Source: Halosimplex halophilum (lineage in GTDB: Archaea > Halobacteriota > Halobacteria > Halobacteriales > Haloarculaceae). From it: 64,000 nucleotides of DNA. The notes under the pieces are model-generated. The model saw only the letters and a list, made by a program, of their open reading frames with translations. It ran no database searches and had not been told where the DNA came from. Every line of letters starts with the position of its first letter. The first letter of the stretch is position 1. The position numbers and the translations under genes were made by a program. This document shows positions 41,423-49,811 of the stretch, piece by piece. The DNA lies in NCBI RefSeq assembly GCF_004698125.1, contig NZ_ML214298.1:620001-684000 (forward strand). The letters run 5' to 3'.

Positions 41423-43606
41423 ATGACAGATAGAGGGGACGGGAGCCCGGACTCCGGCGCGGTCGAGGCGCCCGGAGCGGCCGCCGACGCCCGGGAACCC
41501 GGAGACGGCCCGGCGGCGGCCGCCGAGGTCCTGCACCTCTCGCCCGACGAGCGGGCCGAGCGGGGGGTCGACGACGACGACGTGCGCGCGGCGTTCCTGA
41601 CGGTCGTCCGCGAGGGCGACGCCGAGGCGAAGGACCTGCGGGGCGTCGAGTTGCCCGCGATCAAACTGGACCGGCTGACCGTCGAGGGGGCCGACCGCCA
41701 CCCGGTCGACCTCCGGGGCGCGACCGTCGAGTCGCTGTCGGCGACGTTCGCGACGATCCGCCTGCCGCTCCGGCTGGACGAGGCGACCGTCGGCGACGTG
41801 ACGCTCGACGAGGCCCACGTCGAGGAGGCCGTGCTGGCCGACGGCGCGACCGTGACCGGCGACTTCGAGGCGTTCGAGGCGACGTTCGCCGGCGACGTGG
41901 AGTTCGAGGGGGCGACCTTCGAGGGGCGGTTCGACGTCGACGAGTCGACGTTCACGAACGACGTGAGCTTCGACGGCGCGACCTTCGAGGGGGTCGCCGA
42001 GGCGCGGGGCGCCGAGTTCTACGGCGCCTCGAACCTCCTCGACGACAACACCAGCTTCACCGGCGCGACGTTCGCGGCCCTGGCGGACTTCCGGCAGACG
42101 ACGTTCGGCTTCACCCACTTCGAGCGGGCGACCTTCGCCGGCGAGGCGGACTTCCAGGAGGCCCGCTTCGACGGCGACGCCGAGTTCGACGAGGCCGTCT
42201 TCGAGGGGTTCGCCGACTTCGACGAGGCCCGCTTCGACGGCGACACCGGGTTCGCCGACGTGGCCTTCGAGGGGGACGCCGACTTCCGCGGGGCGGCCTT
42301 CTCCGGCCGCGAGCGCGCGCTCGACGAGGACGCCACCTTCGAGCGCTCGACGTTCGCCGGCGACGCCGACTTCCGCCACGCCCGCTTCCGGTTCGTCACC
42401 TTCGGGGAGGTGGCCTTCGAGGGGGTCGCGCACTTCGAGGAGGCGGAGTTCGACGCCGACGCGACGTTCGCCGACGCGACGTTCGCCGCCGAGGCGGACT
42501 TCGACGAGGCGCGGTTCCGCGAGGACGCCGACTTCTCGGGCGTCGCGTTCGCCGCCCGCGCCGTCTTCCGCGGCGCGGAGTTCGCCGGCGGCGCGAACTT
42601 CCTGGAGGACGACCTGACCTTCGAGGGGGCGCGTTTCGGCGCCGACGCCGACTTCCACAACGCCGAGATCACCTCGGCGAACTTCGTCGACACGGCCTTC
42701 GGCGGCGAGATCGACTTCAGCGGCGCCCGCTTCTCCGAGCGCATCGACTTCGAGGCCAGCCAGGTCGAGGGCGACGCCTGGGTGGACTTCACCCGCGCGA
42801 AGATCCGGAGCGGCGAGATCGCCCAGCCCGCCGACGACTGGGTGCGCTACGACCTGACGCTCGCCTCCCTCGGCGACGTGGACCTGGTCGCCGCCGACGG
42901 GGACCACCGGCGCCTGCTGGACTTCTTCCGCTTTTGCCGCACGGAGTTCACCGAGTTCGACGGCCACGAGTTCGACTTCAGCGGCCACCGGCAGTACCTC
43001 GACCGCAACGCCTGGGCCATCCACGAGTTCCACGAACCGCCCGACGCCGACCCCGACTACGCCCTGGAGATGACCCCCGAGGTGATCGAGACCACCTACC
43101 TCAAGGCCAAACAGAGCGCCGCGGCCGTCGGCGACATGAAGGTCGCCGGCGAGTTCCGGGTCAAGCGCCAGCAGTTCAGCCGCAGGGAGAACCTGCGAGT
43201 CGTCCGCGACAGCTCTCAGGGGCTGTGGACCCGCGTCAAGAACCTCGGCCGCGCCAGCGAGAACTACTTCCTCGGCGTCACCTGCGGCCACGGGATGCGC
43301 CCCATCCGGATCGGCTTCGCGTTCGTCCTCGCGCCGCTGCTGTACGTCCCCCTCTACGCGTTCGGCGGCGGCCCGTTCCGGACCGCCGCGGGCCAGCTCT
43401 CCGTCGCCGAGGCGGCCACGGCGGAAGGGCTGGCGACACTGTTCGACGTGGCCCGGTTCAGCTACATCTCCTACACCACCATCGGCTACGGCTTCCTCGG
43501 CCCGGAGGGGCGGGCCGCGGAGGTACTGGCCGCCAGCGAGGCGTACCTCAGCGTCGTCCTCTCGGCGCTTCTGGTCTACGCGCTGGTCAAGCGCTCGGAG
43601 ATGTGA
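41423..43606 (+). CDS. Pentapeptide-repeat protein fused to a potassium-channel pore
   Basis: A 727-residue protein. After an acidic N-terminus, about 350 residues (110-460) are pentapeptide repeats of A(D/N/T)F type, for example GATFEG, ADFDEARFDGD, ADFRGAAFSG, predicted to form a right-handed quadrilateral helix. A linker with FRVKRQQFSRRENLRVV follows. The C-terminus has two membrane helices around YTTIGYGFLGP, a canonical K+ selectivity filter. Likely a tetrameric channel with a beta-helix cytoplasmic domain. It sits after the polyamine-like operon but has its own promoter. Confidence 0.93.
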   Translation: MTDRGDGSPDSGAVEAPGAAADAREPGDGPAAAAEVLHLSPDERAERGVDDDDVRAAFLTVVREGDAEAKDLRGVELPAIKLDRLTVEGADRHPVDLRGATVESLSATFATIRLPLRLDEATVGDVTLDEAHVEEAVLADGATVTGDFEAFEATFAGDVEFEGATFEGRFDVDESTFTNDVSFDGATFEGVAEARGAEFYGASNLLDDNTSFTGATFAALADFRQTTFGFTHFERATFAGEADFQEARFDGDAEFDEAVFEGFADFDEARFDGDTGFADVAFEGDADFRGAAFSGRERALDEDATFERSTFAGDADFRHARFRFVTFGEVAFEGVAHFEEAEFDADATFADATFAAEADFDEARFREDADFSGVAFAARAVFRGAEFAGGANFLEDDLTFEGARFGADADFHNAEITSANFVDTAFGGEIDFSGARFSERIDFEASQVEGDAWVDFTRAKIRSGEIAQPADDWVRYDLTLASLGDVDLVAADGDHRRLLDFFRFCRTEFTEFDGHEFDFSGHRQYLDRNAWAIHEFHEPPDADPDYALEMTPEVIETTYLKAKQSAAAVGDMKVAGEFRVKRQQFSRRENLRVVRDSSQGLWTRVKNLGRASENYFLGVTCGHGMRPIRIGFAFVLAPLLYVPLYAFGGGPFRTAAGQLSVAEAATAEGLATLFDVARFSYISYTTIGYGFLGPEGRAAEVLAASEAYLSVVLSALLVYALVKRSEM

Positions 43607-43609
43607 CGG

Positions 43610-44305
43610 TCACCGCCGGGCGACGAACACCGTCCGGCGGTCGTCGGGTCCGTACCCCTCGCGGGTCTCGACGGCGAGCCCCGTGTCGTCGAGCGCCGCC
43701 GCGACCGCCTCGTCGTCAAACGGCGTCATCGGCCGGCTGTTGGTGAACACCTCGCCGCTCTCGGTGAACACGACCGACACCCACTCCAGCCGGTCGTCCG
43801 GCCGCGGCTGCATCTGCGCCACCCGGACGTAGCGGCCGCCGTCGTACTCGCCGACGTGGTGCGCGGGCTCGTTGCCCTCCGGCGGGAGCGGCGAGTTGTC
43901 GAAGACGAGGACGCCGCCCGGCGCGAGGCGGTCGGCCAGCGCCGCCACCGCGGGGCCGAGGTCCGCGGGCGGCAAGTGGTTGATCACGCCCCGAATGGCG
44001 ACGACGGCGTCGAAGCGCCCGTCGGCATCGAGGTCGGGGAGGGCGTCCCGGCGGAGCGTCACCCCGTCGCCGCACTTCTCGCGCGCGCGGTCTAGCATCC
44101 CCTCGTGGGGGTCGACCCCGGTCACGTCGTACCCCGCCTCGGCGAACCGGCGGGCGTGTTCGCCCGTCCCACAGCCCACGTCGAGGACCGACGGGTCGCT
44201 CGCGGCCATCCGTTCATCGACGAACGCCACGTCCCGGTCGTAGTCCCACTCGCGCTGGATCGCGTCGTACAGGTCCGGGTGGTCGGTGTAGAGCCGCTCG
44301 GTCAT
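43610..44305 (-). CDS. Class I SAM-dependent methyltransferase
   Basis: A 231-residue methyltransferase. Motif I VLDVGCGTGEHARRF, acidic post-motif VTGVDPHEGML, DAVVAIRGVINHL and a post-III VLVFDNSPLPP. Starts TERLYTDHPDLYDAIQREWDYDRDV, similar to small-molecule methyltransferases of haloarchaea. Substrate unknown. It converges with the channel gene with 3 bp between stops. Confidence 0.88.
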   Translation of the reverse strand: MTERLYTDHPDLYDAIQREWDYDRDVAFVDERMAASDPSVLDVGCGTGEHARRFAEAGYDVTGVDPHEGMLDRAREKCGDGVTLRRDALPDLDADGRFDAVVAIRGVINHLPPADLGPAVAALADRLAPGGVLVFDNSPLPPEGNEPAHHVGEYDGGRYVRVAQMQPRPDDRLEWVSVVFTESGEVFTNSRPMTPFDDEAVAAALDDTGLAVETREGYGPDDRRTVFVARR

Positions 44306-44407
44306 CGGGTCGCTCGTCGGTCCGCTCGGCGGTAGTCGTTTCGGCGAACGCGTCCGCCCCGGTGATCCGCGGCCGCCGGGTGGCGTCGACCCGCCCGACC
44401 CCGCTCC

Positions 44408-45624
44408 TCAGACCAGTTCCTCGCCGGGGAGGAGGTACTGCTCGGCCACGTCGAAGTCGATCTCGATACCGAGGCCGGGGCCCTCCGGGAGGTCGATCTG
44501 ACCGTCCTCGATGACGTCGCCGTCCTCGCCGGTGCGGTCGACCAGGTCCTCGAACCACGGCACGTCGAAGGCGTGGTACTCCAGCGCGACGAAGTTCGGG
44601 ACCGAGGCGGCGGCGTGGGCGGCCGCGACGGTGCCGACCGGCCCCTGGATGTTGTGGGCGACGATGGGCACCCCCTCCAGGTCACAGAGCGTGGCGATCC
44701 GCCGGAAGTCCCGGAGACCGCCGCAGTTTGCGGGTCCGGCGCGGCCACGTCCATCCCCTCGGCGTCGAGCATCTCCTTGAACTCGCCGGGGTCGCGCAGG
44801 TTCTCGCCGGTCATGACCGGACACGAGGTGGCCTCCCGGACGCGGCGGTGGGCGTCGTACTTCCGCGGCTGGACGGGGTCTTCGAGCCACGCCAGATCGT
44901 ACGGTTCGAGCTTCTCCGCGAGCCGGGTGGCGGTCTCGACGGTAAAGTTCCAGTGCAGATCGAACCCCAGGTCCACGTCGTAGCCGACCTCCTCGCGGAC
45001 GGCCTCGACGAGCGAGGTCTTGTGTTCGATGGCGGCGTTGTCCAGCCGGCGAGCCGCGGTGTCCACGTCGGCGTGGGTGCGCACGTCAAGGTCGAACTTC
45101 AGCGCGTCGAAGCCAGCGTCGACGACCTCGCGGGCCGCCTCGGCGTAGGACTCGGGCGTGTAGACCTCGCGGGGGTCGACCGCGCCCGACTGGGCCTCGC
45201 CCAGCGACTCGCCGCCGTGGGTGTCGCAGTACACCCGGACCGAGTCGCGGTACTTCCCGCCCAGCAGCTCGTAGACCGGCACGTCCAGCAGTTTCCCCTT
45301 GATGTCCCACAGCGCCATCTCGACGCCGGGGCCGGGCTCCCACATCACGTCGCGGACCCGTTCGATATCGAGGGGGTTCTGCCCCTCCAGCCGGCCGGGA
45401 TCGTCCGGCCCCTCGCCGTGGACCTCGCCGTAGCCCGTGATCCCCGCGTCGGTCTCGACCTTGACGACCCCCCACTGGAAGTTCGCCTGCAGGATTATCG
45501 TCGACACGTCGGTGATCTCGATGTCCCGCTCGGGCGGCCGATGCGTCTCCTCGTCGGTGAAGTCCATCCACGGCACCCCGCCGCCCGGCGGGATGACGTA
45601 CTCCGGTGTCTCTTCGTCTGCCAT
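44408..45624 (-). pseudogene. Frameshifted enolase-superfamily sugar-acid dehydratase-like gene
   Basis: The mandelate racemase/muconate lactonising type protein is encoded in two frames. Frame 1 runs from the ATG at 45624 through QANFQWGVVKVETDAG, ALKFDLDV, FDLHWNF, LAWLEDPVQP, TGENLRDPGEF and MDVAAPD. Then, near 44733, the frame shifts, and the match continues as ANCGGLRDFRRIA, PIVAHNIQGPVG and IEIDFDVAEQYLLPGE to the stop at 44408. One base seems to be missing from the codon after GAC, at CCGGACCCGC. Metal ligands (Asp, Glu, Glu) and the His are all kept, so the break is recent or a sequencing error. An intact version would be about 405 residues. Confidence 0.85.
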
Positions 45625-45729
45625 GTGTTCGCAGACGGCGCGCGGCCGGATGAAAACTGCGGGGGCGGCGAGTCGGTCCGGGGTCCCGGTGGCGCCGTCG
45701 CCGTCGGGGGTACCCGACAATTTACGTGG

Positions 45730-45749
45730 ATACACACACGACTGTGTAT
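45730..45749 (+). promoter_or_regulatory. Candidate VapB operator
   Basis: Perfect inverted repeat ATACACA (45730-45736) and TGTGTAT (45743-45749) around a 6-bp spacer, ending 2 nt before the antitoxin ATG. A weak AATTTACG TATA-like element lies just upstream (45719-45726). The site would cover the start of transcription and suits autorepression. Confidence 0.55.
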
Positions 45750-45751
45750 TG

Positions 45752-45985
45752 ATGGCCACGAAGACGATCTCGCTCGACGAGGAGGCCTACGAACGCCTCG
45801 CGGCGGAAAAGCGCGAAGGAGAGAGTTTCAGCGACGTAGTGAAGCGCCTCGCGGGCGAACGGTCGTGGAGCGAGGTCGCCGGTATCTGGAGCGACGGGAC
45901 CGACGACATCGAATCGGCGATCGAGGAGGGTCGCGACCGTTCCCGGGCCCGTCGGAAGTGCCTGAGCGACGACATCGACGGATGA
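45752..45985 (+). CDS. vapB: VapB-type antitoxin
   Basis: A 77-residue antitoxin of the archaeal VapB group (PF02697 type). N-terminal ribbon ATKTISLDEEAYERLAAEKREGESFSDVVKRLAGE binds DNA; the acidic/basic C-terminus (IESAIEEGRDRSRARRKCL) should wrap the toxin. The ATG at 45752 fits the promoter and operator, giving a leaderless mRNA. Stop overlaps the toxin ATG by ATGA. Confidence 0.9.
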   Translation: MATKTISLDEEAYERLAAEKREGESFSDVVKRLAGERSWSEVAGIWSDGTDDIESAIEEGRDRSRARRKCLSDDIDG

Positions 45986-46374
45986 TACAGGACACGTCGT
46001 TCGTCCTCGACGTGCTCGGCGGCGACGAGAACGCCCTCGACGCGCTGGCAGACATCGAAAGCGACCGCAAGCCCGAGAAGGTCTCGTCGGTCACGGCGCT
46101 CGAACTCCACGAGGGCGTCGGTCGGTCCGACCGCCCGGACGACGAGAAGGCGGCCGTCCTCGACGTTCTGGACTCGAAGACCGTCGTCCCGGCCGACCAC
46201 GACGTGATGCGCCGTGCGGGCCGTATCTCGGGTGAACTGTACGCGACCGGCGAACCGATCGACAGGGAGGACTGCGTCATCGCCGCGACTGCACTCCGGG
46301 AGGACGAACCCGTTCTGACGCGGAACGTCGACCACTTCGAGCGGATCGACGGACTCGACGTGCGAACGTACTGA
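45982..46374 (+). CDS. vapC: VapC-type PIN-domain toxin
   Basis: A 130-residue PIN ribonuclease. Acidic metal ligands: D4 (QDTSFVLD), E41 (TALELHEG), D97 (REDCVIAATA) and D117 near TRNVDHF. These match the VapC order. Such toxins cleave initiator tRNA or rRNA until bound by the antitoxin. Translationally coupled to vapB by ATGA. It converges on the FrhB gene with 25 bp between. Confidence 0.93.
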   Translation: MIQDTSFVLDVLGGDENALDALADIESDRKPEKVSSVTALELHEGVGRSDRPDDEKAAVLDVLDSKTVVPADHDVMRRAGRISGELYATGEPIDREDCVIAATALREDEPVLTRNVDHFERIDGLDVRTY

Positions 46375-46399: not shown

Positions 46400-48115
46400 T
46401 CAGTGCTCGGCCTCGTGGGGGTTGAGCTCGGTCCCGTACTTGTCGGCGTGGTCGGTGTAGTCGATGAACCGCGGCGCGTCGGGGTCGAAGGGGCGTTTCA
46501 GCGAGTCGAACGCTTTCTTCTTGTCCCAGGACTGCAGGCCGCCGATGGCCGACCGGTCCTCCAGATCGTGGTAGTCCAGGTCCTCCTTGGTGAGGTTCCA
46601 GGCGTCGAGGCCCTGCTCGGTGCGGACGATGACCGAGGAGTACTCGTCGCTGGAGCCGACGGAGCCGACGGTCAGGTCGGCGCAGTAGCCGGTGAAGTCC
46701 GCGCACTCGTCACAGCCCTTCAGGGCGGCGTCGTGGAACTCCTCGACGTCCTCGTCGACGATGAGTTCGCCCTCGTGGTCGTAGGCCATCATCCGGCCGT
46801 CGAGTACGTCCATCTTGCCCACGTTCTCGAGGTCGATGTCCCGCTCCTCCTCGAGCTTCTCGCCCATGAGCTTCTGGTAGTTGAAGTTCTTCGTGCACAT
46901 CAGGGCGATGGCGTAGTCGATGGCCCGCACCCCGTCCTCCTGGCTGGCATAGTCCCACTCGAAGTCCTGCAGGGCGCGGATGCCCTCGATCTCGCAGGGC
47001 GTGCCCACGAGCGCCAGGGAGGCCTCCTCGACGGGCACGTCGAGCTTGTGCTCCCACTGGGAGAGGTTCAGGTTCCCGAGCGCCATCGTCTGGTTGTAGA
47101 AGCTCCCGGCGTTGTCGATGCACTCCTCGGGCGTCGTGGCGAGGAACGACTCGGCCTTCCAGGGCTCGTCGTCGCTCTCGGTGGCGATGAGCGCGCCGTC
47201 GATCTCGCCCTCCTCCAGGAGCGTGCACAGCACCGCCGTCACGAGGCCGCCGTCCTGCGCATTTTCGCGCCAGTCGTCCTCGACCTTCGCGGAGAACTCG
47301 GTGATCGGGTCGCCGGCGCCCTTGACGTTGTCGTCGCCGCCGGTGATCTTCCACTGGCGCTCGTAGCGCAGGCCGCCGCGGGGACAGAAGTCCCAGCACA
47401 TCGAACAGCCCGTACACATCTTGACGAGTTCGGGCAGACCGTCGTCGCCGATGCCGATGGAGTCGGAGGGGCAGGAGGCGACGCAGGTGCCACACTGGAT
47501 GCAGCGGCCGTCGTCGATGACCGCCTCGTCCAGTTCCATGAACCACGTCTTGTCGTCGGGCGTCTCGATGTCGTTCATCCGCGAGCGGATCTCGTAGGAG
47601 GGGGTGTCCAGCGCCAGCTCCTCCTCGCCGGGCCGCTGGACCCGCTTGTCGGCCGGCGTCTCGTAGACGTCCTGACTCTCGCCCTCCGCCGGCTCGGTGA
47701 ACTCCACGTCCCGGAGCTTGCCGTGCTCGTCGACGTTCGCCGGCGTGGCGCCGCCGTCCGGGACGGCCGCCGACCCGTCGGACTGCCCGTCGGCTGCGCC
47801 GTGGGCGTGGCCGCCCCCGGAGTGACCGCCGCAGCCGCAGGAACTCCCGCAGCCGCAGTCGTCGCCGTCGTCGCTCCGGCCGGTGTCGGGGACGCCGGGC
47901 ATGGGGCCGTCGCGGCCGCTCGGGGTCCCGCCGTCCGTCACGAGCCGGTCGTCGTCCAGTTCGAACGCCGCCCCGTCGTCGGTCCCGCGGTCGTGCTCCG
48001 CGAGTTCCGGCGCGGCGTCGGCGGGCGCGACCCCGTCGGGGTCGGCCCGCGCGTCGTCCGCGGCACGGTCGCGCTCGCGGCGACCCCGTCGGCGGTTCCG
48101 TCCGTCAGTCGCCAT
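46400..48115 (-). CDS. FrhB-type F420-binding family iron-sulfur flavoprotein
   Basis: A 571-residue protein of the coenzyme F420 hydrogenase/dehydrogenase beta-subunit family. N-terminal 190 residues: acidic, with a Cys/His-rich CGCGSSCGCGGHSGGGHAHG patch (about 87-106). Then two [4Fe-4S] ferredoxin motifs (CIQCGTCVASCP at about 205-216 and CTGCSMCWDFCP at about 234-245) and the FrhB domain (LVGTPCEIEGIRAL, IALMCTKNFNYQKL, CDECADFTGYCADLTVG). The ATG at 48115 overlaps the reductase stop by 11 nt; GTG 48124 is the alternative. Probably passes electrons from F420H2 to the siroheme reductase. Confidence 0.88.
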   Translation of the reverse strand: MATDGRNRRRGRRERDRAADDARADPDGVAPADAAPELAEHDRGTDDGAAFELDDDRLVTDGGTPSGRDGPMPGVPDTGRSDDGDDCGCGSSCGCGGHSGGGHAHGAADGQSDGSAAVPDGGATPANVDEHGKLRDVEFTEPAEGESQDVYETPADKRVQRPGEEELALDTPSYEIRSRMNDIETPDDKTWFMELDEAVIDDGRCIQCGTCVASCPSDSIGIGDDGLPELVKMCTGCSMCWDFCPRGGLRYERQWKITGGDDNVKGAGDPITEFSAKVEDDWRENAQDGGLVTAVLCTLLEEGEIDGALIATESDDEPWKAESFLATTPEECIDNAGSFYNQTMALGNLNLSQWEHKLDVPVEEASLALVGTPCEIEGIRALQDFEWDYASQEDGVRAIDYAIALMCTKNFNYQKLMGEKLEEERDIDLENVGKMDVLDGRMMAYDHEGELIVDEDVEEFHDAALKGCDECADFTGYCADLTVGSVGSSDEYSSVIVRTEQGLDAWNLTKEDLDYHDLEDRSAIGGLQSWDKKKAFDSLKRPFDPDAPRFIDYTDHADKYGTELNPHEAEH

Positions 48116-49811
48116 GAGCGACACCTCCCGAGACGTTGGCGTCGGCCCGCTGCATGATCTTCCGCAGGCGGTCGTTGCCGACGCGGCGGGTCCACTCGTA
48201 GAACCGCTCGCCCTCCTCGCGCTCGTCGACGTAGGCCTCGAACAGCTGTTCGATGGCCGGGATCACCGCCTGGGCCGGCACGGCGTTCTCGACCCAGTCG
48301 AGGAACTCGTTGTCCGACCCCAGCGAGCCGCCGAGGCCGAAGTCCATCCCCTCGACGATGTTGTCGCCCTCCTCGTTGGTCGTCGTCTCCGGGTCGTCGA
48401 CGTTGACCGTCTCGCCGCGGAAGCCGATGTCGGCGATCTGCGGCTGGGCACACGACGCGGAACAGCCGGACATGTGCATCCGCACCACGTCGAGGTCGTC
48501 GGGCGTGTCGATGCGGCGGTCCAGCGCCTTCGCCCAGCGGTACACCCGATTCTTGGTCTCGATGATGCCGTAGTTGCAGAACTCCGAGCCCGTGCAGCCG
48601 ACGGCGCCCCGCGAGAACGGGCCGGGGTCGGGCTCGTACTTGCGGGCGAACGGCTCGTTGAGCAGGTCGCCGACGTTCTCCGCCGGGATGTGGGTGATGA
48701 GGAAGTTCTGGTCGGTGGCGAGGCGGATCGAGGCGTCCTCGGTGCCGTACTCCTTCGCGGCGCGGGCGGCCTCCGCGAACTCGTCGCCGCCTATCCGGCC
48801 CGCGATGACGTTGAAGCCGACGTACTTCAGGCCGTCTTCCTTCTGGTCGTGGACGCCGACGTGGTCGCCGGTGTACCCCTCGGTGAGGTCCGTCCCGGCC
48901 GTCGGCAGGTCGACCGAACAGCGCCGGCGGACCGCCTTTTCGAACTCCTCCGTTCCGAGCTGCTCGACCAGGTAGCGCATCCGGCAGACGCCGCGGTTGT
49001 TGCGGTCGCCCAGTTCCTTGAACGTCTGGGCGATGGCGCGGCAGAACTCGACGGCGTCGCCCGGCGGGACGAACACGTCCATCTGGGTGGCCATGCGCGG
49101 GCCGTCCGAGAGGCCGCCGCCGACCTTGCAGTGGAAGCCGTAGATCTCCTCGCCGTCCACTTCCTTCCGGGCGGGGGTCATCCCCACGTCGTTGATCTGC
49201 GACTGGCCGCAGTCGTGCTTGCAGCCGGTGATGGTCATCTTGAACTTCCGCGGGAGGTTGGCGTACTCGCGGTTGCCGGTGAAGTAGTCGGAGACGGCGT
49301 CGATGACCGGCTGGGCGTCGAAACACTCGTGGCCGTCCAGTCCCGCGGCGGGACAGCCCAGGACGTTGCGCGCGCCGTCGCCGCAGCCCTGGACGGTCGT
49401 CAGGCCGACCTCCTCGTAGGTCTCCCAGATGTCGGGCACGTCCTCGACGCGGATCCAGTGTTTCTGGATGTCCTGGCGGGTCGTGATGTCGAGGAAGGCG
49501 TCGCCCCAGATGTCGTTTTGCTCCTCGCCGCCGTACTCCTCGGGCGCGACCGCGTACTCCTCGGCGACCTCGCCGACGACCTCGGCCTGCTCGGGCGTCA
49601 GGTAGCCGCCGGGGACCTTCGTCCGCATCATGAAGTAGTCGCCCTTGCGGCCGTGGCTGTACATGCCGGCCCACTTCAGGCGCTCCCACTCGCCGTCGCC
49701 GGCGCGCTCCTCGATCTCGTCGAACGAGAGGCCCTGCTCGGCGTACTCCTTGACGTCCTCGATCACGTCCAGCGGGTGTTTCTCCTGTTTCCACTCCTCG
49801 ACCGTGTTCAT
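48105..49811 (-). CDS. Siroheme nitrite/sulfite reductase
   Basis: A 568-residue assimilatory-type nitrite/sulfite reductase. Six-electron reduction of nitrite or sulfite at a coupled siroheme-[4Fe-4S] centre. Cluster ligands C406, C412, C450 and C454 (CTGSEFC...CSASC); siroheme-facing DITTRQDIQKHWI and MTITGCKHDCGQSQI. TTRQDIQKHWIRVEDVPDIW resembles M. tuberculosis SirA (a sulfite reductase) more than plant nitrite reductase, but substrate is not settled. ATG at 49811; earlier in-frame residues are not family-like. First of two overlapping genes. Confidence 0.93.
   Translation of the reverse strand: MNTVEEWKQEKHPLDVIEDVKEYAEQGLSFDEIEERAGDGEWERLKWAGMYSHGRKGDYFMMRTKVPGGYLTPEQAEVVGEVAEEYAVAPEEYGGEEQNDIWGDAFLDITTRQDIQKHWIRVEDVPDIWETYEEVGLTTVQGCGDGARNVLGCPAAGLDGHECFDAQPVIDAVSDYFTGNREYANLPRKFKMTITGCKHDCGQSQINDVGMTPARKEVDGEEIYGFHCKVGGGLSDGPRMATQMDVFVPPGDAVEFCRAIAQTFKELGDRNNRGVCRMRYLVEQLGTEEFEKAVRRRCSVDLPTAGTDLTEGYTGDHVGVHDQKEDGLKYVGFNVIAGRIGGDEFAEAARAAKEYGTEDASIRLATDQNFLITHIPAENVGDLLNEPFARKYEPDPGPFSRGAVGCTGSEFCNYGIIETKNRVYRWAKALDRRIDTPDDLDVVRMHMSGCSASCAQPQIADIGFRGETVNVDDPETTTNEEGDNIVEGMDFGLGGSLGSDNEFLDWVENAVPAQAVIPAIEQLFEAYVDEREEGERFYEWTRRVGNDRLRKIMQRADANVSGGVAHGD

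Follow-up and report, generated by a model that had tools for sequence, protein, structure and literature searches.

A putative F420H2-dependent siroheme sulfite reductase encoded by two overlapping genes in the haloarchaeon Halosimplex halophilum

Introduction

We analysed a stretch of 64,000 nucleotides (nt) of Halosimplex halophilum (GCF_004698125.1, contig NZ_ML214298.1, positions 620,001 to 684,000; hereafter the window) and focused on two overlapping genes, alpha and beta, encoding an assimilatory-type siroheme reductase and a putative FrhB-type oxidase subunit for the reduced form of coenzyme F420 (F420H2). The two products probably form one enzyme, an F420H2-dependent siroheme sulfite reductase that would convert sulfite to sulfide. 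The pair is already known, since it is the ortholog of a published prediction: aFsr-alpha/beta of halobacteria, i.e. an aSir-type alpha and an Fsr-N-type beta, was proposed by Susanti and Mukhopadhyay in 2012 as a putative F420H2-dependent assimilatory sulfite reductase (PMC3448663) and was still called putative in 2022 (PMC9295563). The window pair is the same in principle, with separate haloarchaeal genes and the same proposed reaction. No experimental test of aFsr was found in the full text of open-licence PMC papers. To this prediction we add a sulfite-type site, a census, a variable Cys-rich arm and two extensions, an actinobacterial cluster and a rhodanese-fused class, and the survey gives it new and stronger genomic support.

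Gene pair and comparison with Fsr

The following features were delineated within the pair, all on the reverse strand:

49811..48105 (-): alpha, assimilatory-type siroheme reductase; ATG start, 568 amino acids (aa); Pfam NIR_SIR (E 2e-55) and NIR_SIR_ferr
48115..46400 (-): beta, putative FrhB-type F420H2 oxidase subunit; ATG start, 571 aa; Pfam FrhB_FdhB_C (E 1e-32), FrhB_FdhB_N and 4Fe-4S dicluster domains
48105..48115 (-): alpha/beta overlap, 11 nt
49239..49253 (-): alpha residues 187-191, PRKFK, substrate-site K-x-K of the sulfite type
48450..48596 (-): alpha residues 406-454, ligands of the siroheme-coupled [4Fe-4S] cluster, C406-X5-C412-Xn-C450-X3-C454
47831..47857 (-): beta residues 87-95, CxCx3CxC within the variable N-terminal arm
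47384..47503 (-): beta residues 205-244, two ferredoxin-type [4Fe-4S] motifs, C205/208/211/215 and C234/237/240/244, within the 4Fe-4S dicluster domains
46568..47296 (-): beta residues 274-516, FrhB core with flavin adenine dinucleotide (FAD) and one [4Fe-4S] cluster, cofactors assigned by homology (alignment with Fsr and Frh)

The overlap and the four Cys ligands of alpha, both noted in the original prediction, were borne out by the open reading frame (ORF) coordinates, the translation and Pfam. The same prediction had described a long Cys-rich N-terminus of beta outside the FrhB fold, and its CGCGSSCGCGG patch (residues 87-97) indeed lies N-terminal to every Pfam-matched domain. Translation of the two genes is probably coupled through the overlap, which would become 20 nt if an in-frame GTG upstream of the beta ATG were used. 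As in aFsr, alpha is of the aSir type with CX5CXnCX3C, the motif described for assimilatory siroheme reductases (PMC10229431), beta joins FrhB to two N-terminal ferredoxin-type clusters of the Fsr-N type, and the subunits are encoded side by side. Residues C374, C407, C468 and C471 of the FrhB core are invariant among 70 aligned relatives.

Like Fsr I/II of methanogens and anaerobic methanotrophic archaea (ANME) (7np8, 7npa), the pair combines a siroheme reductase half and an F420H2 oxidase half made up of two ferredoxin-type clusters plus an FrhB core. Fsr, however, is a single fused chain, its C-terminal half Dsr-like and equipped with an extra ferredoxin domain, whereas the window holds two ORFs and a four-domain aSir-type alpha in which a Pfam scan found no Fer4 domain. 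The second ferredoxin motif, CX2CX2CX3CP, is complete in beta (C234, C237, C240, C244) and incomplete in Fsr, the complete form being absent from FsrI and FsrII (PMC9295563). The best solved relatives of alpha were tobacco (E 6e-86) and spinach nitrite reductase and Mycobacterium NirA (E 3e-67), Fsr being far weaker (E 3e-9). The pair would work like methanogen Fsr, but its assimilatory-type reductase half sets it apart from a split Fsr. Thus, of the split F420-dependent sulfite/nitrite reductase originally predicted, the separate adjacent FrhB-type and assimilatory-type siroheme genes stand, with the census, trees and actinobacterial cluster below in their favour, and the descent from a divided Fsr does not, given the closest relatives of alpha and the complete second Cys motif of beta.

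Pairing of the two genes across genomes

The order was surveyed in 392 haloarchaeal genomes, 132 of which carry FrhB_FdhB_C, with one such gene in the window genome; Haloferax volcanii, taken as a control, gave no FrhB match. The census comprised the best 150 of 161 FrhB_FdhB_C genes, i.e. 149 once the window's own row was set aside, and a pair was recorded when the reductase match ended -700 to +1500 nt from the beta match on the same strand. A siroheme reductase was found directly upstream on the same strand of 146/149 FrhB genes (122 class 1 and 24 class 2, the latter rhodanese-fused), and alpha and beta overlapped in 120 of the 122 class 1 pairs under the start-codon rule. This survey for co-occurrence had been set beforehand as a check, and the lack of a genetic link that would have told against the prediction was not observed. 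A reductase was not found beside FrhB in three loci (L118, L131 and L197), whose FrhB genes are 70-79% like window beta; L118 comes from genome G179 and L131 from G288, both of which hold further FrhB genes.

In a separate beta-only scan, the reductase immediately preceded beta in the same orientation in 73 of 74 loci (exception L085); L038 and L039 share one contig, and two of the loci come from Acidimicrobiaceae metagenome-assembled genomes (MAGs). In the phylum of one of these MAGs, strong beta matches (554-618 bits) were present in 27 of 296 genomes, with three more at about 405 bits, and alpha preceded beta in all 20 top actinobacterial loci. Maximum-likelihood trees of alpha and beta (51 rows each, rooted at the midpoint; the program flagged some long branches) recovered class 1, class 2 and the actinobacterial rows each as one group, and were congruent in that class 1 adjoins the actinobacterial rows in both. 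None of the long open frames compared showed an in-frame alpha-beta fusion; the suspected fusions of G246, G279 and G371, each a frame of 905 aa, were rejected, alpha and beta being separate hits in what is apparently frame overlap.

Electron donor of beta

By sequence, the best solved relatives of beta were 8riu_B, an F420-reducing subunit (E 8e-41), Fsr and Frh. A fold search was carried out with an AlphaFold model of residues 139-571 (70 alignment rows, mean predicted local distance difference test score (pLDDT) 72.5), a poor first model (13 rows, mean pLDDT 52) having been discarded. It ranked 8riu_B (E 3.6e-24), 8rja_E, Fsr and Frh all ahead of plant HCAR (E about 1e-14, 17-19% identity). 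Like beta, the F420-reducing subunits of the ethanotroph carbon monoxide dehydrogenase (CODH) and Fwd complexes (8riu_B, 8rja_E) are separate proteins that combine an F420-reductase domain with a ferredoxin dicluster and plug into another redox enzyme; their partners differ, however, and they reduce F420, the opposite of the direction proposed for beta.

The window genome holds relatives of CofD, CofH and NpdG. The CofD match passes the cut-off, but genomes such as E. coli are matched by its Pfam model too, and the CofH match is under the model cut-off in the window genome and the four other haloarchaea tested (5/5); PF01933 and TIGR02034 were set aside as markers, both matching unrelated relatives. 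That haloarchaea make F420, on which the original prediction leaned, is stated in reviews (PMC8305020, PMC8498797). Its physiological role there is described as undetermined (PMC8498797), just one F420-dependent reaction being known to the authors of PMC8305020, and the pair offers a concrete, testable role. From the potentials given in PMC9295563, sulfite reduction by F420H2 is exergonic.

Substrate site of alpha

The window genome encodes three siroheme reductases (NIR_SIR proteins; six domain hits, two per protein). The K-x-N versus K-x-K position lies at the substrate site, NasD/NirA nitrite reductases having K-x-N. Window alpha (PRKFK) lacks K-x-N, which is found in the nas-linked paralogue L113 (PRKFN), a neighbour of a nitrate-reductase-like gene, a major facilitator superfamily (MFS) transporter and a MobA-like gene. 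Solved tobacco nitrite reductase reads PRKWN in the wild type and PRKWK in a variant entry. K-x-K was present in 94/122 class 1 alphas (92 PRKFK and 2 PRKYK; 26 cut off, 2 without motif match), in 23/24 class 2 alphas (16 PRKFK and 7 PRKLK; 1 cut off) and, as PRKFK, in 20/20 actinobacterial alphas. Alpha thus shares its fold and cofactor motif with NasD/NirA but differs in its K-x-K, in its FrhB partner and in having no nitrate assimilation genes among its window neighbours, the nas-like set sitting at the L113 locus. In Fsr, sulfite is bound by two Arg and two Lys (PMC10229431). Of the two substrates that the original prediction left side by side, sulfite is favoured over nitrite by the K-x-K site and the actinobacterial cluster.

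The first half of alpha also carries Cys 143, 153, 197 and 201, whose spacing resembles a second CXnCXnCX3C set and of which 153, 197 and 201 are present too in the paralogues L112 and L113; this set may be a relic or mark an additional cluster.

Sulfate-assimilation and F420 genes around the actinobacterial pair

Thirty actinobacterial loci were compared, 10 chosen for a nearby FO synthase and 20 without that condition; genes were named from Pfam/NCBIfam on representatives, mostly L265, L267 and L271. Alpha is present in 29 loci (the one lacking it, L286, begins at a contig edge). Of the sulfate-assimilation genes, we counted cysH in 25 loci, cysC in 23 and sat in 22, and of the F420 genes cofE in 18 and cofD and cofC in 16 each. 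A 111-aa protein is encoded in 24 and a TauE-type permease in 16. The order is cofD-cofC-(aroG)-cofE-cysH-alpha-beta-111aa-sat-cysC-tauE on one strand, with fbiC further on and on the opposite strand; fbiC was seen in 12 of the 30 stretches, and an FO synthase lay within 16 kilobases (kb) on the same contig in 14/30, and one more fragment lies at the edge of a contig. An example spans L265:174-18951, in which the 111-aa protein between beta and sat (L265:7983-8318) has no Pfam or NCBIfam match. The linkage to cysH extends to the divergent L288, L291 and L292. Since the loci are related, they are not independent events. The presence of cysH, sat and cysC together with cofE, cofD and cofC beside the pair suggests that the substrate is sulfite and the donor F420.

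Proteins of Rubrobacter xylanophilus and Thermobaculum terrenum were already included in the tree of PMC3448663. Within open-licence PMC, we found nothing on Rubrobacter, F420 and sulfite reductase beyond PMC3448663 and PMC9295563, no paper on a joint operon for F420 biosynthesis, sulfate assimilation and sulfite reductase, and no printed account of the clustering of the pair with sulfate-assimilation and F420 genes.

Rhodanese-fused class 2

The 24 class 2 loci encode an alpha of about 800 aa, with two rhodanese domains N-terminal to the reductase (Pfam, one class 2 alpha scanned) and a beta starting -1 to +3 nt after alpha. All 23 complete class 2 alphas share a CNTARRL loop, likely the rhodanese active-site loop. 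At L117:1960-5629, for instance, a rhodanese-fused reductase abuts a short FrhB gene, as in 23 further loci, and some genomes (e.g. G258, G288) hold class 2 beside class 1. Class 2 is possibly an F420H2-dependent thiosulfate reductase. Rhodanese is fused to 19/529 halobacterial NirA proteins according to PMC11237513, where no FrhB link was seen, and an FrhB-paired rhodanese-reductase class was not found in print within open-licence PMC.

Cys-rich arm of class 1 beta

Among 125 class 1 betas, the N-terminal arm contains CxCx3CxC in 18, Cx3-4CxC in 84, CxCx3-4C in 2, other Cys in 3 and no Cys in 18. At least three Cys within 12 residues occurred in 105/125 arms, compared with 3.1% when each arm was shuffled. 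Apart from its Cys, the arm is variable in both length and sequence, with a pLDDT near 30 in the poor first model. Cys is absent from the short N-terminus of class 2 betas (24/24), and the arm is absent from the two Acidimicrobiaceae betas examined. As Cys clustering beats the shuffle while these other betas do without the arm, we infer that it is kept by selection in class 1 and dispensable for the basic reaction. Its form resembles CxC metal-binding motifs, a resemblance that is no evidence of function.

Proposed reaction and alternatives

In the proposed mechanism, F420H2 would donate a hydride to FAD in beta, and electrons would pass from the FrhB-core [4Fe-4S] cluster through the two ferredoxin-type clusters of beta to the siroheme-[4Fe-4S] centre of alpha within a complex of the two subunits. 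Alpha would then reduce sulfite to sulfide with six electrons, i.e. three F420H2.

Alternatively, the same path could lead physiologically to nitrite, with ANME FsrII as the precedent. Siroheme reductases often take both substrates, and the best NCBIfam model for alpha, under cut-off, is ferredoxin-nitrite reductase, which favours nitrite. Moreover, the K-x-K site does not settle the substrate, because with F420H2 an FsrII reduces nitrite and not sulfite, whereas with another donor it does reduce sulfite (PMC9295563). Still, nitrite appears improbable in view of that site, the K-x-N reductase already present at a nas-like locus, the actinobacterial cysH, sat and cysC, and the rhodanese fusion of class 2. 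There is likewise a slim chance that the enzyme is a sulfite reductase in which beta merely relays electrons from ferredoxin or another carrier. Plant HCAR, which takes electrons from ferredoxin, shares the FrhB fold of beta. Ferredoxin also serves haloarchaeal nitrate assimilation (PMC8305020); against this, the closest structures of beta are F420 enzymes, cof genes adjoin the pair in the main actinobacterial clade, and a ferredoxin-dependent reductase would find beta superfluous. That alpha and beta are chance neighbours without joint function might be argued from the missing fusions and the three unpaired FrhB genes, yet it is extremely improbable given pairing in 146/149 cases, overlapping or abutting genes, congruent trees and occurrence in two phyla.

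Several further observations weigh against F420H2-dependent sulfite reduction by the pair, whose support is genomic. The third reductase of the window genome, L112 (PRKWK), also has K-x-K. No sulfur genes were recognised around the haloarchaeal pairs, and in the window genome sat was not found, the strong CysN match is an elongation-factor gene alone (presumably EF-1alpha-like) and PAPS_reduct matches are weak (best E 5.8e-7), with no typical CysH, so an assimilatory role is at most putative there. In Actinobacteria, only the main clade shows the cof linkage: of the 12 loci without cofE, seven reach less than 4 kb upstream and L273, L287, L288, L291 and L293 truly lack it, and of the five without cysH, the two with enough upstream room (L287, L293) lack it. 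CofH was not significantly commoner in carriers (26/30) than in listed non-carriers (13/20; Fisher p 0.09). In the window organism, sulfite may come from outside, from sulfonates or thiosulfate, and detoxification is as possible as assimilation.

F420H2-dependent sulfite reduction being nevertheless the reading we favour, the actinobacterial cluster, where sulfate activation, CysH, the reductase and F420 synthesis adjoin, turns the 2012 guess into a sharp prediction on the electron route to sulfite. A wider picture can be offered only tentatively, as it is rather doubtful in its entirety. FrhB-coupled siroheme reductases might form an F420H2-driven family of sulfur-oxyanion reductases through which haloarchaea and some Actinobacteria put F420 to physiological use, in the latter as the final reaction of a complete cluster for F420-dependent sulfate assimilation. 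In the rhodanese-fused class, rhodanese would free sulfite from thiosulfate for the reductase half, and the Cys arm of class 1 would carry sulfur or metal for the enzyme.

Genomic context and neighbouring genes

Haloarchaeal context was rejected as a clue to the substrate, the neighbours being uninformative: SRP54/FtsY, prefoldin and eIF-6 kinds recurred in 44, 37 and 34 of 74 loci, respectively (families named from the window's own copies). Sat (PF01747) was dropped as a marker, being in just 12/392 genomes, 2 of them with FrhB, and so was PF01507, too broad with 388/392. Below E 1e-30, PF01507 matched 9 genomes among the matches listed, 7 of them FrhB carriers, a co-occurrence that was not counted because five of these 7 belong to one genus.

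Near the pair, a VapB-type antitoxin and a PIN-domain gene (45743-46374, forward strand) are convergent with beta. An enolase/mandelate-racemase-type gene (44302-45759, reverse strand) has its C-terminal domain split between two frames, which we read as a frameshift or sequencing error. At 41423-43606 on the forward strand lies a gene for a pentapeptide-repeat protein whose C-terminus weakly matches an ion channel.

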